A program made the translations under genes and the position numbers. This document shows, one piece after another, positions 2 to 18,597 of a stretch of DNA of 18,664 nt (positions are counted from its first letter, which is position 1; each line of letters begins with the position of its first letter). This DNA is from Candidatus Eiseniibacteriota bacterium. GTDB lineage: Bacteria; Arandabacterota; Arandabacteria; JAGLYR01. The stretch is taken from positions 1 through 18,664 of the forward strand of contig JAGLYR010000155.1 of assembly GCA_023132135.1 (NCBI GenBank), written 5' to 3'. The notes under the pieces are model-generated. The model did no database searches, had not been told where the DNA came from, and was given only the letters and a program-made list of their open reading frames with translations.

Positions 2-1891
2 TTCGTCGACTCGCCCGAAAGGCTGAGGAAGCCGATGCTCCGCCGCGAGAAGGGGGGCAACCTCGAGGAGTGTTCCTGGGACGATGCGCTCGATTTCGTG
101 GCGGACCGGCTCGGGAAGATCAAGGAGGAACACGGCCCGGATTCCACCTTCTTCCTCGCCTCCGCCAAGGTGACCAACGAAGAGAACTTTGCCCTCATGA
201 GATTTGCGAGAGCAGTGATCGGCACTCACAATGTCGACCACTGCGCCCGACTGTGACACAGCTCCACGGTGGCCGGTCTGGCCAGCACGATGGGCTCGGG
301 CGCGATGACCAACAGCTTCGAGGAAATTTTCACCTCGGACGTCGCTCTCTTTATCGGTACGAACACGACGTGGAACCATCCGGTCTTCGCTTCCATGGTG
401 AAACGGGCGGTCCGCCAGGGGCTTAAAGTGATCGTCTGCGATCCGAGAAGGATCGATCTCGTCGATTACGCCGACATCTGGATCCAGCAGAAAAACGGGT
501 CCGACGTGGCGCTCCTGATGGGACTGCAGCACATCATCTTCCACGAGGGGTGGGAGGACAAGGCCTACATCGAAGAACGGCTCGAGAACATCGAGGAGTA
601 CAGGAAATCCCTCGAGTTCTTCACGCCGTCGAAGGTGGAGGAGCTGACAGGCGTCGACAGGGAACTCCTCTTCAAGGCCGCGAAGCTCTACGCCACGAGC
701 GGACGGGGCGCCCTCTACTACTGCATGGGAATCACGCAGCACTCGCACGGTGTCGACAATGTCAAGGCGTGCGTCAACATGCAGATGATCAGCGGAAACG
801 TCGGCCACGAGGGCGGCGGCGTCAATCCGCTCCGCGGCCAGAACAACGTTCAGGGCGCGTGCGACATGGGCGGCCTTCCGAACGTCTACGCCGGCTACCA
901 GCCGGTGACGAGCGAGGACGCGCGGAAAAAGTTCATGGAGTACTGGGGCCTGCCGGAGGATAACGTCAGCCTCGAAATCGGCATGACGCTCACCAGGATG
1001 ATCAACGCGTGCGGAGAGAAGATCAAGGCGCTTTATTGCCTCGGCGAGAACCCGATGATCTCCGATCCGAACCAGAACCACGTGAGAGAGGCCCTCGAAA
1101 GCCTCGACCTCCTCGTGGTGCAGGATATCTTCCAGACGGAAACGGGAGAGATGGCCGACGTGGTGCTTCCGGGAGTCACTTTCGCCGAGAAGCAAGGGAC
1201 GATCACCAACTCGGAGCGGCTCGTGCAGCTCACGAACCAGGCGATCGAACCGACCGGCGACGTGCGCCAGGACTACGAGATTATCGCCGACCTGGCCGGC
1301 CGGATGGGACATTCCGGATTCCCGAACACAGCGGAGGCTCTCTGGAAGGAGATCAAGGACCTTACGCCGCAGTATCACGGCATGACGTGGGACCGGATTC
1401 GCGAATCGGGCCTGCAGTGGCCGTGCCCCGCGGAGGATCATCCCGGCACGAAGTTCCTTCACAAGGACAAGTTCGCGCGCGGGAAGGGAATCCTGACTCC
1501 TCTCGAGTACAAGCCCCCAGCCGAGGAGCCGGACGCCGACTGGCCTATGGTCCTCTCCACCGGGCGGATGCTGCAGCACTTCCACACCGGCACGATGACG
1601 CGGAAGACGGATGTGCTCGACGCTCTCGTTCCAACGGGGAACGTGGAAATCCACCCGGCCGACGCGGAGAATCTGGGGATCGCGGACGGCGACAAGGTGC
1701 GGGTTTCGAGCCGGCGGGGATCAATCGAGACCACGGCGCTGGTGGTCGAACGTGTCGCTCCCGGATCGATCTTCATCCCGTGGCACTTCGCCGAAGCCGC
1801 TGCGAACGTGCTGACGAACGACGCGCTCGACCCGGTAGCGAGCATTCCGGAGTATAAAGTGTGTGCGGCCCGCCTGGAAAAGGTGGCGTAG
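2..1891 (+). CDS. fdhA: Formate dehydrogenase catalytic (alpha) subunit, selenoprotein, 5'-truncated by window edge
   Basis: Molybdopterin oxidoreductase that oxidises formate to CO2 (or the reverse). One frame is open from base 2 to 1891 apart from a TGA at 254-256. That codon sits in the active-site context HNVDHCARL-U-HSSTVAGL, where this family carries Sec (or Cys) followed by a conserved His, so I read it as selenocysteine, residue 85 of the visible 629. Further family marks are the NPLRGQNNVQGACDMG motif (about 830-880), the molybdopterin-binding middle domain, and the C-terminal dinucleotide-binding domain (about 1530-1880). The start and the N-terminal [4Fe-4S] domain lie outside the window; at least about 55 residues are missing compared with E. 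coli FdhF, more if a NuoG-like extension is present. The stop is 17 nt before the NuoEF-type gene, so the two are almost surely an operon encoding an NAD-linked formate dehydrogenase. A pipeline unaware of Sec would split it into two ORFs. Confidence 0.96.
254..296 (+). promoter_or_regulatory. Bacterial SECIS element with UGA selenocysteine codon
   Basis: Immediately 3' of the TGA (254-256), GGCC (271-274) pairs with GGCC (280-283) around the loop GGTCT (275-279); U270-A284 and G268-C286 extend the stem. A lower stem can form between 260-266 and 291-296 with U263 bulged. The loop begins 18 nt after the UGA, which matches my memory of the E. coli fdhF SECIS, whose apical loop is also GGUCU(G). 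SelB recognises this hairpin to deliver Sec-tRNA. This implies selA/selB/selC/selD elsewhere in the genome. Confidence 0.93.
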
Positions 1892-1908: not shown

Positions 1909-3642
1909 ATGGCAATGAAAAAAGAACTGCAGGACAAGATCGAGCAGATCGCCTCGCGCTACTCTCTGCGCGAGTCGGCCCTGATGCCCGCGCTCGACCT
2001 GGCGCAGGCCGGCGCGGAGGGGACGTACATCCCGCCCGACCTTCTGAAGGATGTGGCGGAGACGATCGGCGTGCGCGTCAATCGGGCGTACGGTCTGCAG
2101 ACCTACTACAGCATGTACAACCGGAAACCGGTCGGCAAGTACCACCTGCAGGTGGACACCAACATTCCGGCGATGCTCATGGGCGCCGGTGAGGTGCTCG
2201 ACCGGCTGAAGGAGAAACTGGGCATCGGCGTCGGGGAGACGACAACGTGCGGGCGCTACACGCTCTCCACCGTCGAGGACCTCGGATCGTGCGGCACATG
2301 CCCCGTGATCCAGGTGAACGACCGCTACTACGAGAGCATGACTCCCGAGAAGGTGGACAAACTGCTCGACAGCCTCGGCGGCGACAAGATGCCCGACTGG
2401 AAGGCGGAGACGTACTGGGAGTCCGATTGCGACATCCTTCTCCGCCGGCGCGGGAAGGCGGACTCGACATCGATCTCGTCGTACATCGCCGACGGCGGTT
2501 ACAAAGCACTGGAGAAAGCTCTGAAGATGAAACCGGCGAAAGTGACCGCGGAGGTGAAGGCAGCGGGGATACAGGGGCGCGGCGGCGCAGGTTTTCCCGC
2601 GGGCGTCAAGTGGGGCTTCCTCCCGAAGGACTCGGAGAAGCCGGTTTATCTCGTCTGCAACGCCGACGAGGGGGAACCGGGCACCTTCAAGGACCGGCAG
2701 ATCATGGAGTACGATCCACATCTCCTCCTCGAGGGGATGGCGATCTGCGCGCACGCAATCGGGGCGCACGAAGGCTTCATCTACATCCGGGGTGAATTCT
2801 CCTGGATCGCCGACATCCTCGAAAAGGCGGTGAACGAGGCGAAAGAGGCGGACAAGCTCGGTCCGGACTTCCGGATCATCGTCCACCGGGGTGCCGGCGC
2901 GTACGTGTGTGGTGAGGAGACGGCGCTGATCGAGTCTCTGGAGGGAAAGCGGGGGGACCCGCGCCTGAAGCCGCCCTTCCCGGCGGTGGAAGGCCTCTAC
3001 GGATGCCCGACGATCGTCAACAACGTGGAGACCCTGGCCAACATTCCGTACGTGATCGAACACGGCGCGGAAGCGTACAAGAAGTTCGGCGCGCCGGACA
3101 ATCACGGACCAAAAATCTTCGGTCTCTCCGGCCACGTCAACAAACCGGGCGTGTACGAGTATCCTCTCGGAACGCCCCTCAAGACGTTGCTGGAGAAGGC
3201 GGGCGGAGTGAAGGGGAAACTGAAGGCGGTGATCGTCGGCGGTCTCTCCGTTCCGATTCTGACCGCCGAAGAGGCCGCGGACCTGAACCTGGACTACGAT
3301 TCGTGCACCGCGCACGGAACGATGCTCGGTTCGGGAGGCATCATGGTGATCGCTGAGGGGACGAGCATTCCCGAGATCGCTCTCCGGACAATCGAGTTCT
3401 ACGCGCACGAGTCGTGCGGGCAGTGCACGCCGTGCCGGGAGGGCTCCAACGCGATCCTGTATCTTCTCAAGCGAATGGTCGACGGCGGCGGGAAGAAGGC
3501 GGATATCGACGCGATTCTTCGCCTCTGCGGAACGATCAAGGGATCCACTCTCTGCCCGACCGGCGACGCGTTCTCGCTGCCGATCGAGGCGATGGTGCAG
3601 AAGTTCCGTCCCGAGTTCGAAGCGCTCATAAGCAGTCCCTAG
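1909..3642 (+). CDS. NuoE-NuoF fusion, NADH/FMN-binding beta subunit of formate dehydrogenase
   Basis: 577 aa. Residues about 1-150 are a NuoE (24-kDa, thioredoxin-like) domain; about 170-577 are a NuoF (51-kDa) domain. The NuoF half looks fully functional: FMN/NADH loops GRGGAGFPAGVKWGF and CNADEGEPGTFKDR, the GAGAYVCGEETALIESLEG motif, and four [4Fe-4S] ligands C503, C506, C509 (SCGQCTPC) and C549 (TLCPTGD). In the NuoE half the expected [2Fe-2S] ligand positions are 83, 88, 124 and 128, the same 5/36/4 spacing as E. coli NuoE, but they read D, A, D, C. C114 and C131 are extra cysteines nearby. So the N1a-type cluster is probably absent or rebuilt. Its position directly behind fdhA makes it the diaphorase subunit of an NAD-linked formate dehydrogenase; fused NuoEF beta subunits are known in formate dehydrogenases and hydrogenases. 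The last codons (SSP-stop) run into a heptamer repeat. Confidence 0.94.
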   Translation: MAMKKELQDKIEQIASRYSLRESALMPALDLAQAGAEGTYIPPDLLKDVAETIGVRVNRAYGLQTYYSMYNRKPVGKYHLQVDTNIPAMLMGAGEVLDRLKEKLGIGVGETTTCGRYTLSTVEDLGSCGTCPVIQVNDRYYESMTPEKVDKLLDSLGGDKMPDWKAETYWESDCDILLRRRGKADSTSISSYIADGGYKALEKALKMKPAKVTAEVKAAGIQGRGGAGFPAGVKWGFLPKDSEKPVYLVCNADEGEPGTFKDRQIMEYDPHLLLEGMAICAHAIGAHEGFIYIRGEFSWIADILEKAVNEAKEADKLGPDFRIIVHRGAGAYVCGEETALIESLEGKRGDPRLKPPFPAVEGLYGCPTIVNNVETLANIPYVIEHGAEAYKKFGAPDNHGPKIFGLSGHVNKPGVYEYPLGTPLKTLLEKAGGVKGKLKAVIVGGLSVPILTAEEAADLNLDYDSCTAHGTMLGSGGIMVIAEGTSIPEIALRTIEFYAHESCGQCTPCREGSNAILYLLKRMVDGGGKKADIDAILRLCGTIKGSTLCPTGDAFSLPIEAMVQKFRPEFEALISSP

Positions 3643-3780: not shown

Positions 3781-3852
3781 CAGTAAGTTGCGTGTCCCCA
3801 TTTGCCGGATTTCCCCACACGCATTGAGATCGACCATTTTCGGGACGATACA

Positions 3853-6207
3853 ATGGCAGCAAATCGGTTACTGCGACCCTACATTGCGGTCATGCTCCTG
3901 GTGCTCCTGGCGTGCACCTGTGCGAAGGAAAAGCCCGAGTCACCCCGGCGCTTGAATCCTCTGGATCCGGCAACGGAGCTCGAGGAACCCGATCCCTTCC
4001 ATCTCGTAGCGGAGTTGGAAGGGGATGCGGTCTCCGTCAACTGGCAGGCGGCGGCGATCGGCGGGATTGCCGGCTGGATGCTCCTTCGCAGCGAGGATGC
4101 CCTCTTCGACCAACCCGACACCCTGGCGTCCTTCGATCTGGATCTTCGATCCTACCTGGACACCGGCGTGGCGCCCAGCCTAACGTACTACTACAAGGTC
4201 CTCGCAGTGGACGGGAGCGGCATGGTTTCCGCCGGATCTCACCTTGTGGCGGCCCGGATTGAAACACGTCCAGTCATCCAGATCGATGGAGGCGCCGAGT
4301 ACGCCGCCTCGAGACGGGTGACTCTGGTTTTCTTGACGGCCGAAGCCGACAGCATGTGGATTGCCAACGATTCCGCCTTCGCCGCGGCCCAAGGCCAACC
4401 TTTCCAGAGCCCGGTCACCGATTGGCTGCTGGAATCCGGGGCCGGCGTCAAGACCGTCTACCTGCAATTGCGGCACGCGGATGGCCGGATGTCCCCCACC
4501 GTCGTGGACAGTATCCTCCCCCTGCCCATTGCGGATCGATGGATTCTGGGAGAGAGCGGAACCCGGTACCTGACGAGTCCGACCGGCCGCATCGTGGTTC
4601 ACGCGACCGGCGCCGACTCACTCAAGACCTGGAACTCGGGAGATCCGGTCCCCGGCGAGTGGGTGCCTTTCCCTTCCACGAGCGACTCATTGCCACTCGA
4701 CTGGTCGTTCCCCGGCGGGGAAGGGTGGAAAACCCTGATGGTCCGGTTCAAGGATGATTTCCTGATCGAGACCATGACGGATACGGTTTCTCTGGCCGTG
4801 GACCTGTCCCCCCCCGTGGCCCGGTTCACGGTCACCCCACCGGAGAGCGGGCGGTACTTCGTGGTGGATGCCACAGCTTCCCACGACGTGCTGGATGTCA
4901 CTCCCGCGGAGGATCTGCTGTTCTCGTGGCAGTGGGAGGACGAGGAATCCTGGACCACCTGGTCCACCGAGAGAACCGGGACCCACACGTACGAGACATT
5001 TGGCCCCAAGACTATCCGCGTGATCGTGAAGGACGCTGTCGGAAGAGAGGACACCCTCTCGTACGATGTAGAGGCCCTTAACCGGGCGCCCTCGCTCCCC
5101 GGCAACCCGACGCCCGCAGACGGGGCCGCGGGGCAATCGATCCTGCCCACCCTGTCCTGGACCGCCAGCGTGGACGAGGATGGGGACCCGGTCACCTACA
5201 CCGTCTACTTCGGGGACGGCCCGGGACCCGACCAGGTCCTGGCCGACAACCTTCCGGATCCCGTCCACCCCGCGCCTCCGCTGGCGGACGGACGGACGTA
5301 CTACTGGAATGTCGTAGCCACGGATACTCTCGGGTTGGGGAGCGACCCGGTGCAGTGGTCGTTTACAACCCATACGCGCAGCGGCGACGTCTATAGCCCC
5401 ATCATCTCCTGGGGTTCCCCCGGCGCCGGCCCGGGTCAGATGGAAGTCGTCCGGGACGTAGTTGTAGACTCCCGGGGTCGCATCTATGTGAGCGACATCA
5501 ACAACGGGCGAATCCAGATCTTCTCATACCCGGGGATCTACCTCGACGAGATCACCGAAGCTGCAGGAGCGGGTCTCGAGCAACCCTGCGGCCTGGCCGT
5601 CGATGAGGATGCATCTCTCTACGTGGCCGACACGAACAATCACCGGGTCGTCAAGTTCGATTCCACAGGCCAGTGGGTGCGGAGCATCGGAACCCGCGGC
5701 ACGGGAGACGGGGAGTTCGAATTCCCCAGAGACGTGTGCGTGGACTCCGGCGGGAACATCTACGTCCTGGATACTGGAAACAACCGGGTCCAGAAGTTCG
5801 ACGCGAGTGGCCACTTCACCCTCGAGTGGGGAAGCATGGGCGATCTTGACGGGCAGTTCCAGACTCCCGGCGGCCTAGCGGAAACTCAAGGTTCTATCTA
5901 CGTGGCCGATAGCTTCAACAAGAGGATCCAGCAATTCGACAACCAAGGGCAATTCCTGGCAAGTTGGGGCGGCTTCGGAGGGGACAGCGTCCCCGGCGCT
6001 GTCGCTGCGGACTCCCAGGGGAACGTGTATGTCCTGGAACGGTCCGGGGCAATCCACAAGTTCACCGCCGACGGCGCGCTCCTCTCCAGCTGGGGCGCCG
6101 GGGATCTTGGAAGCCCTGTCGATGGCTTGTGTGTTGGCGCGGCCGGCCATCTGGTGTGGGTAGCCGACACTTTCAACCACCGCGTCCAGGTATTTGAGAG
6201 GCAGTAG
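3853..6207 (+). CDS. Lipoprotein with FN3-like, PKD-like and NHL six-bladed propeller domains
   Basis: 784 aa from ATG 3853; a TTG at 3802 in the same frame was rejected because 3853 places a short charged n-region directly before a lipoprotein signal (hydrophobic run, then LLAC with Cys at residue 21). The mature protein would be lipid-anchored. In order: an FN3-like domain (roughly residues 40-130), a less defined beta-rich part, a PKD-like domain (about 315-410, ARFTVTPP to IRVIVKDAVGRED), a second FN3-like domain starting at NRAPSLPGNPTPADG (about 412-510), and six NHL repeats (about 525-784) recognisable by phrases such as YVADTNNHRVVKF and YVLDTGNNRVQKF, giving a complete beta-propeller. 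This is a binding or scaffold architecture with no catalytic residue pattern I recognise. The PEGA gene begins 39 nt downstream and is probably cotranscribed. Confidence 0.88.
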   Translation: MAANRLLRPYIAVMLLVLLACTCAKEKPESPRRLNPLDPATELEEPDPFHLVAELEGDAVSVNWQAAAIGGIAGWMLLRSEDALFDQPDTLASFDLDLRSYLDTGVAPSLTYYYKVLAVDGSGMVSAGSHLVAARIETRPVIQIDGGAEYAASRRVTLVFLTAEADSMWIANDSAFAAAQGQPFQSPVTDWLLESGAGVKTVYLQLRHADGRMSPTVVDSILPLPIADRWILGESGTRYLTSPTGRIVVHATGADSLKTWNSGDPVPGEWVPFPSTSDSLPLDWSFPGGEGWKTLMVRFKDDFLIETMTDTVSLAVDLSPPVARFTVTPPESGRYFVVDATASHDVLDVTPAEDLLFSWQWEDEESWTTWSTERTGTHTYETFGPKTIRVIVKDAVGREDTLSYDVEALNRAPSLPGNPTPADGAAGQSILPTLSWTASVDEDGDPVTYTVYFGDGPGPDQVLADNLPDPVHPAPPLADGRTYYWNVVATDTLGLGSDPVQWSFTTHTRSGDVYSPIISWGSPGAGPGQMEVVRDVVVDSRGRIYVSDINNGRIQIFSYPGIYLDEITEAAGAGLEQPCGLAVDEDASLYVADTNNHRVVKFDSTGQWVRSIGTRGTGDGEFEFPRDVCVDSGGNIYVLDTGNNRVQKFDASGHFTLEWGSMGDLDGQFQTPGGLAETQGSIYVADSFNKRIQQFDNQGQFLASWGGFGGDSVPGAVAADSQGNVYVLERSGAIHKFTADGALLSSWGAGDLGSPVDGLCVGAAGHLVWVADTFNHRVQVFERQ

Positions 6208-6246: not shown

Positions 6247-7902
6247 ATGAGAGCGTTCACTCATCGAGCAGGGTTTGGGGAACAGTCCGGGCGGTTACGC
6301 CGCCTGGGGGTTCTGCTGCTCGTTGCCGTTGTTTCTCAGCTGCCCGGCTATCTTTTCGCTGACGCGCCCGGCCGCGGCGGCGGACCGGCATCCATGGGAT
6401 TGCCTCCGGGAGAGTTCCCCGTGAAACTGGGCAACCTGCTGGTCACAACCTATCCCCAGGGCGCCGAAATCCGTGTCAACTCCGAGGTCTTCGGGACCAC
6501 TCCGTTGGACCCTCTGAACGTCGAGGCTGGATGGTACCTGGTCCAGGCCCTCAAACCCAATCTCTTTGCCTCGGCAAGGGTCCACGTTCGCGTCGGCAAT
6601 CTCACCACCGTGGCGCTGACCCTCAACAATGCGAAAGGGACTCTGTCGGTTCTCTCCCGCCCCGACAGAGCATCTGTTTTCCTTGACGGGGAAAGGCGGG
6701 GCGAGACACCGCTCAGACTCGAAGGGATCAGCGCCGGAGATCATGATCTCCGCGTCAGCCGCAGAGGCTATCTCGACTACTCCACGGGCATCGACATCGG
6801 AGCCTCCGAGGAGTCGGTGGTGGACGTTCATCTCCCGGTCCCGGCCAAGCTGGATCTGCGGTCGGAACCGGAAGGGGCAGACATCTACATCGGCAACCGG
6901 CACGTCGGGCGCACGCCGACCCTTGCGCAGTCTGTCCGTCCCGGCCCTCTGGAGATCACGATCCGGCTGGACAACTTCGACGAGTGGATCGAGAGCATCG
7001 AGGTTGCCGAGGACGAATCCCGCCTGCTGATCGCGGAACTTGTGGCCCGGAGATTCCCATTGAACCTGGTTTCGGATCCTCCCGGCGCCGAGATCGAGAT
7101 GGACGGAGCAAAGATCGGGACGACGCCTCTCCATTGGGCGGTCCCCCTGGGTGAACGCCGGTTCGTGTTCCGGCGCCCCGGTTACGAGGACAACATTCTC
7201 AGGGTCTACGTCTCCTCTGACATGGAGCCCGATCTTCACGTGGCCCTGCGTCCTGTGACGGGATTCGTGACCCTCCGGAACGCCCCGGCCGGAGCCACAG
7301 TGGCGTTGTTGGACTCGGAATCCAGGGTCTGGCCCTCGCCGCTGGAAGGCGTGGAGGTAACGGCGGGAGCAAAGCGGTTCCTTATCCGGGCGCCGGGCTA
7401 CCGGACCCGGGAGATCCGCGCGGAAGTCCGGTACGAGGAAGAGCTTGTTCTTAGACCCGAATGGCAGGCGAAATCCTCGACCGGGGGACTGCTGAGAGTC
7501 CTGATCCCGGGATTGAGCCAGCGGTACCAGGAGAAGAGGGTCCGTTCGGTCCTGATTCCCGCCGCGCAGGCCGCTGCCCTGGCGGGTCTCCTCATCACCA
7601 CGAATTCCTACAATGACGCCGTGGACAGCTACAACACGGCCTGGGACCGCTACATGGACGAGGTCGTTGCCGAACCCATCGACGCAGCGTGGCGCGAGGC
7701 CCAGGATCGGCACGACCGCATGGAGGACAAGAAGACTGTGCGGAACGTGTTCCTCGCCGCGTCGGTTGGCATCTACCTCTATAACCTCGTCGATGCCCTC
7801 TTCCTCGTGCCCGACTACGGGGAAACCTCATCGTCCGGCGTAGATTTCACCGCCAATCCCGCCGCGCGGCAATTGTCAATGAGACTACGCCTGGTTTTCT
7901 AG
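6247..7902 (+). CDS. Exported protein with five PEGA repeats and C-terminal membrane segments
   Basis: 551 aa. The N-terminus has a hydrophobic segment (about 20-38, GVLLLVAVVSQLPGYLFA) that looks like a signal peptide. Five consecutive PEGA repeats of about 65-70 residues follow (roughly 62-131, 132-197, 198-266, 267-335, 336-404), each with a pattern like 'SxPxGAxVxxDGxxxGxTPL' then 'hxVxxxGY'. After that comes LLRVLIPGLSQRYQEKR and two hydrophobic segments (about 435-455 and 500-520) separated by a charged, probably helical stretch; this resembles the short membrane module (DUF5683-like) that follows PEGA domains elsewhere. PEGA domains are usually surface-layer or protein-binding modules. 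An AGGA 4 nt before ATG is a weak ribosome site. Function is unknown; pairing with the NHL lipoprotein suggests a shared cell-envelope role. Confidence 0.85.
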   Translation: MRAFTHRAGFGEQSGRLRRLGVLLLVAVVSQLPGYLFADAPGRGGGPASMGLPPGEFPVKLGNLLVTTYPQGAEIRVNSEVFGTTPLDPLNVEAGWYLVQALKPNLFASARVHVRVGNLTTVALTLNNAKGTLSVLSRPDRASVFLDGERRGETPLRLEGISAGDHDLRVSRRGYLDYSTGIDIGASEESVVDVHLPVPAKLDLRSEPEGADIYIGNRHVGRTPTLAQSVRPGPLEITIRLDNFDEWIESIEVAEDESRLLIAELVARRFPLNLVSDPPGAEIEMDGAKIGTTPLHWAVPLGERRFVFRRPGYEDNILRVYVSSDMEPDLHVALRPVTGFVTLRNAPAGATVALLDSESRVWPSPLEGVEVTAGAKRFLIRAPGYRTREIRAEVRYEEELVLRPEWQAKSSTGGLLRVLIPGLSQRYQEKRVRSVLIPAAQAAALAGLLITTNSYNDAVDSYNTAWDRYMDEVVAEPIDAAWREAQDRHDRMEDKKTVRNVFLAASVGIYLYNLVDALFLVPDYGETSSSGVDFTANPAARQLSMRLRLVF

Positions 7903-11543: not shown

Positions 11544-12719
11544 TCAGAGCAGCTGTCCGCCCCACAGCTCGCCACAGAAATCGCTCCAGGGTAGAATCTC
11601 GATACCGTCGTCCGTCGTGCGCCGGTTCTCTGACCGAGAGACAACCACCTTTCGCCGTGGAGTGTTTTCCTCATTCAGTGCCCTCAGGCCCTTCAGGTCA
11701 GCGGCTCGAATCTCCCGGGTCGACTTGCATTCAATGGCCAAGTCCATATCGCCGACGATCAGGTCGACTTCGAAACCAGAACTCGTTCGCCAATAGCTTA
11801 TGGGATGATCGAGGCGTTCGTAGGAAAGATAGGCACGCACTTCGTTCAGTACAAAGTGCTCGAAGGCCCACCCGAAACGATCAGATCCCTCGACGATGAT
11901 CCGGGCTTCCGGATGAAGATGGTTCGCAACACCCACATCGAACAGATAGAACTTGGCCGTCTCGACTAGACGGCGCTTCTTGCGCCGCCGCCAAGGCTCC
12001 AAAGTGAAACCGAGAAGCGTATCCTCAAGAAGTTGGAAGTAGTTGCGCACGGTGCCGGCTGAAACACCAGTCTCGCGAGCGAAGTTGGCGTAGTTGATCT
12101 GCTGGCCGTGACAAAGCCCCGCAATCTGCAAGAAACGAGAAAACGCCGGGATGTTCCTCGTAGCGGACTCGTCGATGATCTCCGCCTTGATGTAGTTGTG
12201 CACGTATGCCTTCAGCAACGGTGCGGGATCATCGACAAGGTAGTGTACTGGAAGCGTCCCATGCTGAAGAGCCCGCGGCAGATCGACGGTGCCGATCTCA
12301 TGGCTGGTCAGCGGTAGCATGTGGTAATCGATGGCTCGTCCACCGAGAAGGTTGCGAGATCGGCGCCGTAGCTTCCGGGCGCTCGATCCGCACAGAATGA
12401 ACTGGGTACATGTGTTTTCGAGGAGCCAGTGCACCTCCTCCAGCAGAAGCGGAACATGCTGGACCTCGTCGATGACGACGATCCGGGGACTCTCGGCCAG
12501 CACCTCCTCGCGTAGAAGCCGCGGGCGAACACTCAATTCGGCGCTTAGTGTCGTATCCAGTAGGTCGTAGAATCTCGCCTCGGGATAGCGATCGTGCAAG
12601 AATGTCGTCTTGCCGGTCTGCCGCGCTCCCCACAGAAAGACGGCGGCCGAGCCCGTAATGGGGTTCGGCACCCACGATAACTCTAGCGAACGCTTGAATT
12701 TAGACATTCGAGATGTCAT
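11544..12719 (-). CDS. AAA_14 / DUF4143 family ATPase
   Basis: 391 aa. Walker A GARQTGKT (31-38), Walker B RIVVIDEVQ (79-87), and the sensor-like stretch FILCGSSARKLRR make up the AAA_14 domain. A winged-helix-like part (VSAGTVRNYFQLLEDTLLGFTLEPW) follows, then the C-terminal DUF4143 domain with a PD-(D/E)xK-like signature, FEVDLIVGDMDLAIECKS (E-x-K). This is a widespread, frequently transferred family with no settled function. The open frame continues upstream to 13133 but the extension is low-complexity and unrelated to the family. ATG 12719 (MTSRMSKF) is preceded by a promoter with its +1 on the ATG; ATG 12707 is an alternative. Direct repeats and a gene remnant flank it, suggesting it arrived by insertion. 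Confidence 0.88.
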   Translation of the reverse strand: MTSRMSKFKRSLELSWVPNPITGSAAVFLWGARQTGKTTFLHDRYPEARFYDLLDTTLSAELSVRPRLLREEVLAESPRIVVIDEVQHVPLLLEEVHWLLENTCTQFILCGSSARKLRRRSRNLLGGRAIDYHMLPLTSHEIGTVDLPRALQHGTLPVHYLVDDPAPLLKAYVHNYIKAEIIDESATRNIPAFSRFLQIAGLCHGQQINYANFARETGVSAGTVRNYFQLLEDTLLGFTLEPWRRRKKRRLVETAKFYLFDVGVANHLHPEARIIVEGSDRFGWAFEHFVLNEVRAYLSYERLDHPISYWRTSSGFEVDLIVGDMDLAIECKSTREIRAADLKGLRALNEENTPRRKVVVSRSENRRTTDDGIEILPWSDFCGELWGGQLL

Positions 12720-12725
12720 GTGCTG

Positions 12726-12754
12726 ATTTTCATGCAAATCAACATGACAGTCAA
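12726..12754 (-). promoter_or_regulatory. Leaderless-type promoter TTGACT-N17-GAAAAT-N6-ATG
   Basis: On the minus strand, the -35 is at 12754-12749 and the -10 at 12731-12726; CAGCAC precedes ATG 12719. The -10 is weaker than at the other three genes, but the 6-nt distance to the start codon is the same. It abuts the remnant of a plus-strand gene. Confidence 0.5.
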
Positions 12755-12764
12755 GGATTTTCTT

Positions 12765-12857
12765 GACGAAGGTCGAGGCGTATCCCCGGGAGTGTACCTG
12801 GTGCGCATCGATACCGGTGGATCCGTCCGGACGGGGCGTGTGGTTCTGGTGAAGTAG
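12765..12857 (+). pseudogene. 3' remnant of a FlgD/T9SS-like C-terminal domain
   Basis: An open plus-strand frame reads DEGRGVSPGVYLVRIDTGG and, after SVRT, GRVVLVK-stop (TAG 12855-12857). This is the classic ending of secreted or surface proteins in FCB-group bacteria: G-V-Y-hydrophobic-V-R, a beta turn, then R-V-V-L-hydrophobic-K-stop. No upstream body is present; the frame runs backwards into the start of the minus-strand ATPase, which probably replaced it. It shows the host has, or had, proteins with this sorting or anchoring domain. Confidence 0.72.
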
Positions 12858-12870
12858 TTCATGGGGAAGC
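12846..12870 (+). repeat. 25-bp direct repeat flanking the ATPase gene, copy 2
   Basis: Partner of 11441-11465 (23 of 25 identical). It spans the stop codon of the gene remnant and continues 13 nt beyond it, so similarity is not limited to coding sequence. Confidence 0.8.
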
Positions 12871-12913
12871 GCCCTCGGCGTCGCGGCTCTGGGCTCTCGC
12901 TTCTCAGTGCCAA

Positions 12914-12956
12914 GCTCACCGTTCGTCCTGAGCCCGTCGAAGGATCGACGGTGAGC
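12914..12956 (+). repeat. REP-like palindrome
   Basis: GCTCACCGT (12914-12922) pairs with ACGGTGAGC (12948-12956). The interior GTTCGTCCTGAGCCCGTCGA is of a type I recall as dispersed in many bacterial and metagenomic genomes. It lies between the gene remnant and the 3' end of the small secreted-protein gene. Confidence 0.65.
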
Positions 12957-13000
12957 AGCCGCCGGTGATTCTGCTCCCCCACGCCCGGCAGGCGAATCCC

Positions 13001-13690
13001 TCACCTCCTGTAGAGGGCCCTCAGGCGACTCCAAGATGTGACCTCGAGTGAACTCGGCGGCAGCGAGTAGCTTACCAGCTGATAGAGCTCTGAAGCTATG
13101 AACTGGACCTCGCCGACATCGGCCGTGAACCACATGGATGCCTGACGCTGCGACGCATCGATCTTTCTCCCCAGGAGGTCATAGTCCCCGCGGTCCAGAT
13201 CCGGGAATACCCCACCCACGGCGTATGCATAGAACTTCCCGGCAGGAACATTGACGAACCCTTCCTCCACGATCTGGTGACAGAAGGAGAACGAGTCGCA
13301 GTAGGTCGAGTCCGGCAAGTTGTATATATCCACCGAGAAGCACAACTTCTCCCCGAGGAAAGGAGCTGCGCTGATGATCCAAATGCCGGGTTCATAGATG
13401 AAGCCGAATTGTTCCTCGGATCTGTAAGCCCCCCGCAGCACCAGCGCCCCGTCCGCCGCCTCGTACCAGTAATTCCGAAGCCCACCGTCAGGGTCAGTCC
13501 TGTACTCCATCACAGCACACTCGATGCCCCAGATATCCTCCCAACCGACGCACTCCCTCACATACGGCGTCGACGTCTCATCGCCCACGTACTCCCACAC
13601 GCTTCCTGCGCACATGGGGAAAAACTCGTGTGCCTCCGTTGCGTGATTCACGCTGAGCACGAACACGATTACGAATCCAAGCAGACGCAT
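13001..13690 (-). CDS. Small secreted protein of unknown function
   Basis: 229 aa from ATG 13690, chosen over an upstream start at 13744 because a GGAGG lies 10 nt before it and the protein then begins with a signal peptide (MRLLGFVIVFVLSVNHATEA, cleavage probably after residue 20). The mature start EFFPMCAGSVWEYVG and a later VPAGKFYAYAVG resemble the 'FP...G..W.Y' and 'VPAGTF.A..V' motifs of a beta-rich family of bacterial exported proteins (DUF3108-like). Cysteines at several positions could form disulfides. No enzyme motif is visible. Neighbours give no functional clue: the ATPase downstream is separated by a repeat-rich gap. Confidence 0.72.
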   Translation of the reverse strand: MRLLGFVIVFVLSVNHATEAHEFFPMCAGSVWEYVGDETSTPYVRECVGWEDIWGIECAVMEYRTDPDGGLRNYWYEAADGALVLRGAYRSEEQFGFIYEPGIWIISAAPFLGEKLCFSVDIYNLPDSTYCDSFSFCHQIVEEGFVNVPAGKFYAYAVGGVFPDLDRGDYDLLGRKIDASQRQASMWFTADVGEVQFIASELYQLVSYSLPPSSLEVTSWSRLRALYRR

Positions 13691-14051: not shown

Positions 14052-16091
14052 ATGAAGCGGCAACCGGCCTGTCTTGGCCTGATCCTGGCAATTCTTGTGG
14101 TTCTTCTGGCCGCCCCGGCGCGGGGGGACCGCGCCGGGGCGCTCACGTGCTACAACGCGGGCGTGTCCCTCCTGGCGGAAGGAAAAAACAGGGAAGCCAT
14201 CAAGGAGCTGCGGCGAGCCGTCCGCAAGGATTTCAAATTCGCCGACGCCCACGCCAAACTCGCCGACGCCTACTCCGGACTCGCCACCATCGAGGGCAGA
14301 AGACTGGCCGTGGAGGAATACCGGCTGGCGCTGCGCTACGACCCGGAGAATCCCGACTACCACCTCGCGCTCGGGAAGATCCGTGTTGACCAGACCTTCG
14401 ACCGCTACGCCGACACCCGCTTCCAGGAAGCCATCAAACTGAACCCGGATCTGACCGCCGCGTACCTGCAGCGGGGCCTCATCTACATCCGCCGCTGGCT
14501 GACCTGGCGCCAGTACACCGATGACCTGGAAACCGCTCGCGGTTCCTTCCAGGAAGCCTACGATCGGGGCTCCGGAGACCGGGACGTCTTCTACCATCTG
14601 GCACAGCTGTCGCTGGAGCTGGAGAATCCGGAAACAGCCCTGGACGTCTCGGAACAGATCCTGGAGGAGGATCCGGAGGATACCGGGGCGCGCTTTGTCT
14701 GCGCGCAAGCCCTGCATGATATGGAGAAACTCGAAGAGGCGGAGGAGAATTACCTCCTTGCGATTTCCACGCTGGGTGTCGAAGAAAAACTGCTATTTCT
14801 CGGGATTGAAGAGGTCGCTTCCCGGAAGCTGAGGAAGATGCTCTCGAAGATCGATCCGGACAGCACGCGGGAGCTGGCCCGGAGGTTCTGGCGGGAGCAT
14901 GACCCCTACCTGGCGACCAAGGTCAACGAGCGCCTGCTGGAGCATTGGCGCCGCATCCTCAAGGCCGACCTGTACTTTTCCTCGGACAAGATCGAACTCA
15001 AGGGGCGACATTCCTCGAGGGGCAAATCCTACATCCGCTATGGCCCGCCGACGGAGATGGTTTCCTATATCGGCGAGAATCTCCGTCCCAACGAACTCTG
15101 GACGTACCGGGTTGGGGGTAACCGGTTCCGGCTGCGATTCGAAGACCGTTTCATGAACGGCGAGTTCGGCTTCCCCTTCGGCTCCAGGGGCGGCGGGTCG
15201 GCCATGCGCTGGGAAATCCTCCTCCGCCAGCTCCCGGAGTTCTACGTGCCCGAGTTCGAGGGTAAGCAGGTTCGCATGATTTCGGATGCCTGTTCCTTCT
15301 TCCGCCACAAGGGCAAGACGCGGCAGGAGATCTACTACGCCATCCCGGGGCGGGATCTCGAACTGCGGAAGGAGGACAAAGGGTGGCAAGGACGGCTCCG
15401 GCGGCGGGTCGTAGTCTACGATCGGGACTGGCGCATTGCGGCACAGGAGTCTTCGACCGTTCTCACACACCCCTCCGGATCCCTGCATCTACTGAGGGAG
15501 GGAACCCTGGTGGATCAGATCCACTTCGACCTTAAGCCGGGAACCTACCTGGCGGCCATTGCGCTGGAAGACCGCGCCGCCGAGGTCATGGGGCTGACGG
15601 AGGTCGGGATCACGGCCAGGGCTTTCGAGGGAACGGATCTCGAGATCAGCGACATCCAGCTGGCCCGCTCTATCCACCGGGCGTCGGACCCGAGTCCCTT
15701 CAACAAGGCCGCCCTCCGGGTGGAACCCGAACCCTCCCACCAGTTCCAGAGATCGCATCCCGTGAACCTCTACTACGAGATCTACGGCCTGGATCTGGAC
15801 GAGACGGGGCACGCCCGGTTCCGAACCACTATCCGGGTGATTCCTCTCGAGGTGGAGGAAGACCAGGGATTCTGGGACGGGGTCCTCCGCCTGTTCGGCA
15901 AGAAACCGTCGACTCCGCCACACATCGCCAGCACCTACGGCCACACGGCCACCTCCAGATCCGCGCCCCAGCACGTCTCGCTGGATCTCACCCCTCTCCG
16001 CCCCGGCATGTACCGCGTGACCGTCATGATCGAGGATGCGATCGCCGGGATCCATACCGCGCGCAGTACGGTGTTGTATATAAGCAGATAA
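14052..16091 (+). CDS. Exported TPR protein with degenerate GWxTD domain, paralog A
   Basis: 679 aa. A signal peptide (residues 1-25, LAILVVLLAAPARG then D) leads to a TPR superhelix (about 27-260; e.g. ALTCYNAGVSLLAEGKNREA, PDYHLALGKI, AAYLQRGLIYI). A GWxTD-family region follows: FWREHDP (279-285), VNERLLEHWRRILKADLYF, then GRHSSRG (318-324) where the family normally has GWxTDRG, and YIRYGPPTE (327-335). The C-terminal half (about 350-679) is beta-rich and ends in strand-like LRPGMYRVTVMIED. GWxTD proteins occur widely in FCB bacteria and Acidobacteria, and their function is poorly known; the TPR part suggests protein-protein contacts in the periplasm. The gene downstream is a paralog sharing most motifs over the full length. 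Predicted to be translated from a leaderless mRNA. Confidence 0.88.
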   Translation: MKRQPACLGLILAILVVLLAAPARGDRAGALTCYNAGVSLLAEGKNREAIKELRRAVRKDFKFADAHAKLADAYSGLATIEGRRLAVEEYRLALRYDPENPDYHLALGKIRVDQTFDRYADTRFQEAIKLNPDLTAAYLQRGLIYIRRWLTWRQYTDDLETARGSFQEAYDRGSGDRDVFYHLAQLSLELENPETALDVSEQILEEDPEDTGARFVCAQALHDMEKLEEAEENYLLAISTLGVEEKLLFLGIEEVASRKLRKMLSKIDPDSTRELARRFWREHDPYLATKVNERLLEHWRRILKADLYFSSDKIELKGRHSSRGKSYIRYGPPTEMVSYIGENLRPNELWTYRVGGNRFRLRFEDRFMNGEFGFPFGSRGGGSAMRWEILLRQLPEFYVPEFEGKQVRMISDACSFFRHKGKTRQEIYYAIPGRDLELRKEDKGWQGRLRRRVVVYDRDWRIAAQESSTVLTHPSGSLHLLREGTLVDQIHFDLKPGTYLAAIALEDRAAEVMGLTEVGITARAFEGTDLEISDIQLARSIHRASDPSPFNKAALRVEPEPSHQFQRSHPVNLYYEIYGLDLDETGHARFRTTIRVIPLEVEEDQGFWDGVLRLFGKKPSTPPHIASTYGHTATSRSAPQHVSLDLTPLRPGMYRVTVMIEDAIAGIHTARSTVLYISR

Positions 16092-16488: not shown

Positions 16489-18597
16489 ATGCGCTATCGA
16501 CGCCTCATCGCACTCGTCCTCGCTGTGATCGTGTGCGCTTCCTTTCACTCGCAGGCATTCGCCGATCGCGAGAAGGCCCTCGAACACTACAGTTCCGGTC
16601 TCGCTCTGATGGAGGAAAGCAGATACCGGGACGCTATCAAGTCCTTCGAAAAGGCCGTCCACGAGGACTTCAAGTTCGCAGACGCCCACGCGAAGCTGGC
16701 AGCGGTCCACTTCCGACTCGCCACGATCGAGGAGCGAAGGCTGGCCGCCGAGGAATACGGTCTGGCCATCCGCTACGATCCGGACAACCCCGACTACCAC
16801 CTGGCGCTGGGGAGAGTCCAGATTGCCCAGTCTTTCGACCGGGCGGCCCTGGTTTCTCTTCGAAAGACCATCGAGCTGGATCCGGAAAGGGACAAAGCAT
16901 ACCTCGAACTGGGTCTGCTCCAGCTCCGCCTCTGGAGAGATGAGGGAAAGGACCTTCGCGAATCTTACGAGACTCTCCTTCAAGCCTACGGCCGGGGTTC
17001 CACGGACCGTGAGCTGCTTCACACTCTGGGCCAGGTTGCCAACGAAGTAGAGGAATTCGAAATCGCCGAGGAAGTCCTGCTGAGAGTCGTCCTCGAGTAT
17101 CCGTCCGACTCCGAAGCCCGATTCCAGTACGCCATGGCCCTCCACGGGCTGGGACGATTGGCGGAAGCGGAGGAAGCCTACCTGACCGCCATATCCATGA
17201 CCGGCGTCGGGGACCGCGCGTTTTACCTCGGAGTCCAGGGAGTTGCGAGCGCCGGTCTTGATCGCGAGTTACGCGGTTCAAACGAAACGGGAATCGCAGA
17301 CCTGGCGCGCCGGTTCTGGCGCGAGCAGGATCCGCTTCCCAGTACGGCGGTCAACGAACGTCTCCTTGAACACTGGCGCCGCATTCTTCAGGCCGACCTC
17401 CGTTTCTCCGCGCCAAAAGCCGGATGTCTTGGACGCTACACGGCCCGCGGCCAGACCTATGTCCGATTCGGCATTCCCACCCATCGGGTCTTTTCCATCG
17501 ACGAAACTCGCCGCCCGCTGCGCCGGGATGAGGCGATGCTTCGCCATCCACAGAGCCCGCAGCACAACTATGACATGATCGATCTCAACCCTCGACCCGC
17601 CGAGACGTGGACCTACTGGGTCGACGGCAAGCCCTTCGAGCTCACCTTCCGGGATCGATTCCTGGATGGCCAGTTCGGTTTTGCGTTCGACTTGGGAAGG
17701 GACGCTGCAAAGGACTGGGAGACCTTCGTACGAGAAATCCCCCAGATCTACCTTCCCGAGTACGAGGGGAAACAGATCCGGATGTTCGCCGACGCTTGTG
17801 CATTCTTCCGGAACCCCGGGACAACACTGCAGGAGATCTACTACGCCATCCCTGCCAGGCAACTCAGGTTCAGGAAGGAGGAGTCGGGCTGGAGCGGCAG
17901 GCTGGTGCGCCGGATTGTCCTCTACGACCTGGACTGGAAGGTCGTGGCCGCCGAATCAAGCACCATCGTCACCCAGATTTCGGGAACCCTCGACAACGTG
18001 AGGCAGGGCACTCTGGTCTATCTGAGCGGGATCGATCTCAAACCCGGACGGTACTTCGCGGCGATTTCCCTAGAGGATCCGGCTGCCGGAATCATGGGTT
18101 TGGCGGAGATCGATCTGTCGACCCGGTCCTTCGACTGGCCGGGGGTCCAACTCAGCGATATCCAATTGGCCCAGTCAATCACAACCACGGACACACCCAA
18201 CCCCTTCGATAAGGGGGGTCTCACCGTTGTTCCCGAACCTTCTCACTTTTTCCACCGCGCAGAGCCGGTCAACTTCTACTACGAAATCTACGGGCTGGGT
18301 CTGGATGAGGATGGGCGCTCGCGATTCAAGGTGACCGTCCGGGTCATCCCCGTGGACGTCGAAGACGCGGGAGGGCTCTGGCAGTTGGTCCGGCGTCTCT
18401 TCCGTCGGAAACCGACGACCCCACCGCACATCGGCAGTACCTTCACCCACACCGGCTCGTCCGACACCGCTCCCCAACGGCTGTCGCTCGACCTCTCTCC
18501 CCTGCGGTATGGGAAGTACGATCTCTCCGTCAGCGTGGAGGACCTGGTCGACGAGGGAACCGCCTCAGGGAAGACAGTGCTGTATATCACGCGGTGA
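16489..18597 (+). CDS. Exported TPR protein with degenerate GWxTD domain, paralog B
   Basis: 702 aa. Signal peptide to AFA-25, mature start DREKALEHY. The TPR region (about 27-250) is very close to paralog A (shared DFKFADAHAKLA, LATIE.RRLA.EEY, DNPDYHLALG). The GWxTD-type region has FWREQDP (276-282), VNERLLEHWRRIL, then GRYTARG (315-321) instead of GWxTDRG, and YVRFGIPT. Compared with A it carries an insertion of about 25-28 residues (around RRDEAMLRHPQSPQHNYDM) before AETWTYWVDG. The C-terminal half again matches A (EGKQIRMFADAC, QEIYYAIP, PVNFYYEIYGL, TPPHI). The strong similarity along the full length shows a gene duplication that kept even the promoter geometry. Its separate promoter permits independent regulation. 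Role unknown; probably a periplasmic or outer-membrane-associated scaffold. Confidence 0.88.
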   Translation: MRYRRLIALVLAVIVCASFHSQAFADREKALEHYSSGLALMEESRYRDAIKSFEKAVHEDFKFADAHAKLAAVHFRLATIEERRLAAEEYGLAIRYDPDNPDYHLALGRVQIAQSFDRAALVSLRKTIELDPERDKAYLELGLLQLRLWRDEGKDLRESYETLLQAYGRGSTDRELLHTLGQVANEVEEFEIAEEVLLRVVLEYPSDSEARFQYAMALHGLGRLAEAEEAYLTAISMTGVGDRAFYLGVQGVASAGLDRELRGSNETGIADLARRFWREQDPLPSTAVNERLLEHWRRILQADLRFSAPKAGCLGRYTARGQTYVRFGIPTHRVFSIDETRRPLRRDEAMLRHPQSPQHNYDMIDLNPRPAETWTYWVDGKPFELTFRDRFLDGQFGFAFDLGRDAAKDWETFVREIPQIYLPEYEGKQIRMFADACAFFRNPGTTLQEIYYAIPARQLRFRKEESGWSGRLVRRIVLYDLDWKVVAAESSTIVTQISGTLDNVRQGTLVYLSGIDLKPGRYFAAISLEDPAAGIMGLAEIDLSTRSFDWPGVQLSDIQLAQSITTTDTPNPFDKGGLTVVPEPSHFFHRAEPVNFYYEIYGLGLDEDGRSRFKVTVRVIPVDVEDAGGLWQLVRRLFRRKPTTPPHIGSTFTHTGSSDTAPQRLSLDLSPLRYGKYDLSVSVEDLVDEGTASGKTVLYITR

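Follow-up and report, generated by a model that had tools for sequence, protein, structure and literature searches.

The window, by which we mean the whole stretch of 18,664 nucleotides analysed here, is the start of a contig in a 3.4-Mb genome assembled in 345 contigs, and the region 5′ of fdhA lies outside the assembly. It begins with two genes on the forward strand, one for the alpha subunit of a formate dehydrogenase and one for a protein in which NuoE and NuoF are fused. The features considered below, with residues numbered on the fusion, are:

2–1891, forward strand: fdhA, formate dehydrogenase alpha subunit, 5′ end cut by the contig start (open from nucleotide 2 with a TGA read through; Molybdopterin and Molydop_binding matches)
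254–256, forward strand: in-frame TGA in fdhA, predicted to be read as selenocysteine (motif DHCARL-U-HSSTV; homologues; tRNA-Sec in the genome)
1909–3642, forward strand: NuoE-NuoF fusion, formate dehydrogenase beta subunit, 577 residues (open reading frame; Pfam and NCBIfam; fold shared over the full length with MeFDH1-beta and HoxF)
1939–2376, forward strand: NuoE-like domain, helical part and thioredoxin fold, without the [2Fe-2S] site (PF01257; PDB alignment; AlphaFold2 model)
2155–2157, forward strand: D83, ligand position 1, a cysteine in NuoE (D in 9/9 fusions)
2170–2172, forward strand: A88, ligand position 2 (A in 8/9 fusions, G in 1/9)
2248–2250, forward strand: C114, private to the window genome (aspartate in the 8 remaining fusions and 14/14 aligned NuoE)
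2278–2280, forward strand: D124, ligand position 3 (D in 7/9 fusions, C in 2/9)
2290–2292, forward strand: C128, the sole retained ligand position (C in 7/9 fusions; S in one, G in one)
2299–2301, forward strand: C131, typical of the clade (C in 8/9 fusions; A, G or S in 108 NuoE)
2428–2430, forward strand: C174, in the linker, invariant (9/9 fusions; no C in the separate NuoF rows covering the column)
2467–3636, forward strand: NuoF-like part with the FMN/NAD(H) domain, SLBB and the ligands of the [4Fe-4S] cluster N3 (Pfam; ligands in 9/9 fusions; non-bifurcating signature)
3304–3306, forward strand: C466, after the SLBB match and before the N3 motif, invariant (9/9 fusions; 0/18 aligned NuoF)

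Pfam recognises 2Fe-2S_thioredx on residues 11–156 of the fusion with 141 bits, where the cut-off is 24.8, and the NuoF domains (FMN domain, SLBB and NADH_4Fe-4S) at residues 216–572. The NuoE domain is full, and both the alignment to PDB chains and the model give it a helical part at residues 5–66. The AlphaFold2 model of the fusion has a pLDDT of 90.4 and a pTM of 0.91, though the block 121–130 averages just 72, and it matches over the whole length both MeFDH1-beta (PDB IDs: 7vw6, 8j83, 7xqw; TM 0.82–0.88) and HoxF (PDB IDs: 5xf9, 5xfa; TM 0.83–0.85). The four N3 ligands, C503, C506, C509 and C549, are intact in all nine fusions.

When the domain is aligned to the NuoE and NDUFV2 chains in the PDB, the four ligand columns of the N1a cluster hold D83, A88, D124 and C128 with a spacing of 5, 36 and 4 residues, just as a first-pass annotation made from the DNA letters had proposed; C114 and C131, to which it also drew attention, are likewise where it placed them. 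The ligand sites align ungapped (VCTTTPCML...VECLGAC in a database chain, VDTNIPAML...VEDLGSC in the window), which rules out that the usual cysteines have shifted elsewhere. All of the 108 distinct standalone NuoE relatives scored have cysteines in the four columns (CCCC), and among 118 distinct homologues of the N-terminal domain the only other departures from this pattern, besides the fusions, were two HoxF proteins. Since nine homologous fusions, that of the window included, share the loss of ligands while the 108 standalone proteins are CCCC, chance or sequencing error can be excluded. The loss is real, conserved and modestly surprising.

The eight fusions found besides that of the window all adjoin fdhA and come from Planctomycetota, Acidobacteriota, Hydrogenedentota and Chloroflexota, so that the family spans five bacterial phyla with the window. 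When the N-terminal 224 residues of the fusion were searched against GTDB species genomes, 60 loci were returned, and only three of these are fused like the window protein, namely those of a Pirellulales MAG (L027) and a Holophagae MAG (L028), both with the ligand pattern DACC, and of a Hydrogenedentota MAG (L029) with DADC. Profile searches of sampled genomes gave five more: two with DADC, one each from the phyla of the Holophagae MAG (G078) and the Pirellulales MAG (G357); two from the phylum of the Hydrogenedentota MAG, in which even C128 is replaced, by S or by G (G738, DADS; G698, DADG); and one with DGDC from the phylum to which a Chloroflexi MAG belongs (G1106). At the thresholds used, fusions were found in 2/297, 2/392, 3/68 and 1/400 genomes across the four phyla sampled. 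None was found in 294 Elusimicrobiota genomes, whose seven top-scoring matches are NuoE proteins with CCCC, and seven other genomes of the window's own phylum hold no comparable match. Given these low counts and the lack of a match in those seven genomes, the family is rare and patchy.

Among the first eight fusions, mean pairwise identity is 68% in the thioredoxin half of the NuoE domain and 69% in the NuoF part, compared with 48% in the helical half. For the closest pairs the dN/dS of the NuoE domain (NG86) is 0.08–0.12, values that are rough, as synonymous sites are near saturation. Together, the identity of the thioredoxin half and the dN/dS indicate that the ligand loss struck a domain under purifying selection rather than a decaying one; they rule out random decay, which the first-pass annotation had already doubted. 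Both the NuoE tree (support 100/99) and the NuoF tree (100) unite the fusions in a single clade, and in these trees their NuoF part groups with standalone NuoF of the complex I type, apart from HoxF. Constraining all NuoEF fusions to a single origin gives AU p-values of 0.026 for the E domain and 0.056 for the F part, with long branches in play, and the E-domain test with fusions and HoxF as one clade gives a weak p of 0.04. A single origin is thus disfavoured, not firmly, and because the tests fall between 0.026 and 0.056 an independent loss is likely, if unproven: by these trees N1a was probably lost here a second time, separately from HoxF.

The neighbouring fdhA has a TGA at the selenocysteine position in six loci (the window, L027, L028, L145, L146 and L167) and a cysteine there in two (L147 and L148), that part of L029 being beyond the contig end. 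The tRNA-Sec of the window genome scores above the Rfam cut-off, and the formate dehydrogenase of the window probably contains selenocysteine. The order is fdhA followed by nuoEF in the window, L027, L028, L029, L147 and L148, and nuoEF followed by fdhA in L145, L146 and L167. In the relatives, the N-terminal sequence of FdhA resembles, by a look at the sequence, a ferredoxin domain of the NuoG type; the window copy is cut off there, and a search of the window genome with the FdhA N-terminus of L027 matched only nucleotides 2–253 of the window and other FdhA- or NuoG-like stretches. The Chloroflexota genome G1106 has tandem formate dehydrogenase operons (L167 and L175): the nuoEF-fdhA pair without the ligands lies directly before a second operon, which encodes a NuoEF fusion with all four cysteines in place (CTGPVC, PCAGRC), and both fdhA genes have one stop, at the selenocysteine position. 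NuoEF fusions with and without the four cysteines therefore coexist in one genome. Four relatives have MFS transporter genes, by appearance perhaps formate or oxalate carriers, close to their fdh genes (L027 8250–9518; L028 8840–10222, reverse strand; L147 2303–3565; L148 2484–3785), and none was noted in the window. Downstream of its fdh genes the window encodes an NHL-repeat/PKD protein (3802–6207) and a PEGA-domain protein (6247–7902), then an AAA_14/DUF4143 ATPase on the reverse strand (11544–13133), whose listed reading frame begins well upstream of the domain, and two adjacent, similar TPR-repeat genes (14052–16091 and 16489–18597) that probably arose by tandem duplication.

Taking sequence and model together, we consider it quite probable that the fusion serves as beta subunit in a non-bifurcating, NAD(H)-linked formate dehydrogenase of two subunits, in which the NuoE domain has lost N1a and acts as a structural cap. 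Complex I would apparently have supplied a full NuoE along with NuoF, and the two would then have been fused; the NuoE domain would subsequently have lost the off-pathway N1a and been kept for its packing on the FMN/NAD part of NuoF. Electrons from formate would pass by way of the Mo/W cofactor and the FdhA clusters to N3, FMN and NAD, involving neither N1a nor ferredoxin, and since this route runs through N3 and FMN the relay could dispense with N1a. The covalent fusion and the fixed substitutions at D83 and A88 may stand in for the structural task of the cluster. Reduction of N1a restrains NAD+ release and has been linked with the retention of NAD+ (PMC5562879), a restraint that would be absent in these formate dehydrogenases. 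A structural role is most likely for the domain, which favours one of the options raised in the first pass, that it may be purely structural.

The invariant C174 and C466 are the part of the fusion that could speak against such a cap, as they could signal that another metal is bound or a disulfide formed. Changing the N1a ligands of complex I in E. coli, Y. lipolytica and N. crassa destroys its assembly or stability (PMC3898324), so a loss without compensation is unexpected. The NuoE domain might bind a different cluster or metal through C174, C466 and C131 with C128 or with D83 and D124. C174 and C466 are present in every fusion and missing from the aligned NuoF relatives, where the C466 column is L, V or I in all 18 proteins (one other cysteine appeared in a wider scan), C131 is kept in eight of nine, and D83 is invariant. 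However, no set of four cysteines is conserved across the nine fusions, which makes a replacement cluster unlikely, and the cluster from C114 and C131 that was first suggested finds no support in either residue, the former being D in the eight other fusions and the latter G in the Chloroflexota member; nor does C128 fare better as part of one, being S or G in two of the Hydrogenedentota proteins. C174 and C466 are moreover distant in sequence, and HoxF without N1a is active with no such cluster (PMC3189943). We therefore hold a different cluster or metal to be clearly unlikely. A related speculation, resting on the same residues and assuming that N1a has the assembly role seen in complex I, is that the cluster was replaced and not merely lost, with C174 and C466, aided by C131 and D83, forming a disulfide or metal site that would lock the NuoE cap onto NuoF; this too seems unlikely. 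The cluster could also come from outside, if a separate intact NuoE resembling FdsG joined the complex and supplied N1a, as FdsG does beside the likewise cluster-less domain of FdsB (PMC7171172), and the window is indeed cut on its 5′ side. Such a gene had been suggested at first, but the flanking sequence retrieved for seven homologous loci contains none, the window's own upstream region lying beyond the contig end. Further NuoE domains occur elsewhere in the genomes of the relatives; in the window genome, the sole complete standalone NuoE is a HydC, which adjoins and is paired with HydB on contig C99. The window domain is a full NuoE with its helical part and not the FdsB domain of about 100 residues, and its full-length fold is that of MeFDH1-beta and HoxF, whose own domain occupies the place of NuoE. 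All this makes a separate NuoE partner highly unlikely.

An altogether different reading would make the enzyme electron-bifurcating in the manner of Bfu or HylABC, as proposed for the two-subunit FdhAB of deep-sea Chloroflexi, where a similar order of domains was so read and the beta subunit was annotated as thioredoxin-like 2Fe-2S (PMC5736913). The sequence marks of bifurcating beta subunits have been given (PMC7311640, PMC9304861), and at every one of these sites the window fusion and its relatives are in the non-bifurcating state (GTFKD, Y and GG[LS]S[VT], with GGLSV in the window), whereas the HydB encoded on contig C99 reads GAFMD, F and GGPSG. The HydC-HydB pair to which it belongs (genome G000, contig C99; loci L001 and L013) thus has the signature residues of bifurcation. 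After the SCGxCxPC motif the fusions continue for 74–76 residues, compared with 128–153 in those HydB-type proteins with their end in view. The extra clusters B2–B5 of the bifurcating family have no counterpart here: its C-terminal cluster domain is absent from the fusions, and Pfam finds no N-terminal [2Fe-2S] domain of the HydB type in that of the window. The ligands of the BfuC-type cluster are lost as well (PMC9304861). From the signature residues, the short C-terminus and the missing ligands, bifurcation by the fusion enzyme appears very unlikely, and a Bfu- or HylABC-like enzyme, as read in the Chloroflexi, extremely improbable.

The structural-cap reading bears on the role of N1a, which is debated: the cluster is off the electron path, yet complex I without its ligands fails to assemble. 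A family near complex I that keeps the NuoEF fold with the cluster presumably gone is a natural experiment on this role, in that the fusions would show what form a stable cluster-less NuoE takes and supply D83 and A88 as candidate substitutions. A more practical point concerns annotation, for the Pfam label 2Fe-2S_thioredx, assigned here far above its cut-off, is no proof of a cluster; for the two-subunit formate dehydrogenases that uncultured bacteria encode, it is unsafe to infer either a cluster or bifurcation from it.

Several known systems resemble the fusion in part. NuoEF without N1a is already known in hydrogenases, where the loss is described for HoxF (PMC3189943, PMC11647496), and for formate dehydrogenases we found no description, in the open-access literature, of a full NuoE domain so changed. 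The first-pass annotation had allowed that the pattern might be a known feature of all homologous formate dehydrogenase fusions: the loss does extend to all fusions of the clade, but no paper describing it for these enzymes was found. HoxF of the NAD-reducing [NiFe]-hydrogenases of Cupriavidus necator and Hydrogenophilus thermoluteolus is likewise a NuoE-NuoF fusion that has lost N1a ligands, with the pattern CACS in our alignment of the C. necator protein, which is described as a NuoEF fusion without N1a (PMC3189943, PMC11647496), and such N1a-less HoxFUYH enzymes show no reaction with ferredoxin (PMC11647496). HoxF differs in having a hydrogenase partner, with hoxU following it, other substitutions and a branch of its own in both trees, of NuoE and of NuoF, whereas the window fusion neighbours fdhA. 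The genome with the L027 fusion also has a HoxF-like fusion, with the pattern C-D-C-S (G008, L102).

A closer counterpart by function is MeFDH1 of Methylorubrum extorquens AM1, a two-subunit formate dehydrogenase whose beta subunit, Fdh1B (PDB IDs: 7vw6, 7xqw, 8j83), is likewise a fused NuoE-NuoF. It holds a [2Fe-2S] cluster, B2, where the window has D/A/D/C, and this cluster is present yet off-pathway, outside the relay (PMC10869683); in sequence, the NuoE part of the window is only weakly similar (E-value 5e-6 to 7e5z_B). The alpha subunit of the MeFDH1 type has a NuoG-like cluster domain at its N-terminus, a stretch that the contig end removes from the window copy. A search for a MeFDH1-beta-like sequence in a Hyphomicrobium genome gave a 569-residue match that looked FdsB-like and had no NuoE ligand set in the alignment. 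FdsB itself, from the formate dehydrogenase of Rhodobacter capsulatus, is also a beta subunit with a cluster-less N-terminal thioredoxin-like domain (PMC7171172), but there the domain is an extra one and N1a sits in the separate FdsG, while the window has a full NuoE and no FdsG gene was found. The closest sequences to both parts of the fusion are NuoE and NuoF of complex I, and the best PDB matches of its NuoE part are NDUFV2; complex I keeps the four ligands and requires them for assembly (PMC3898324), whereas the fusions have lost them.
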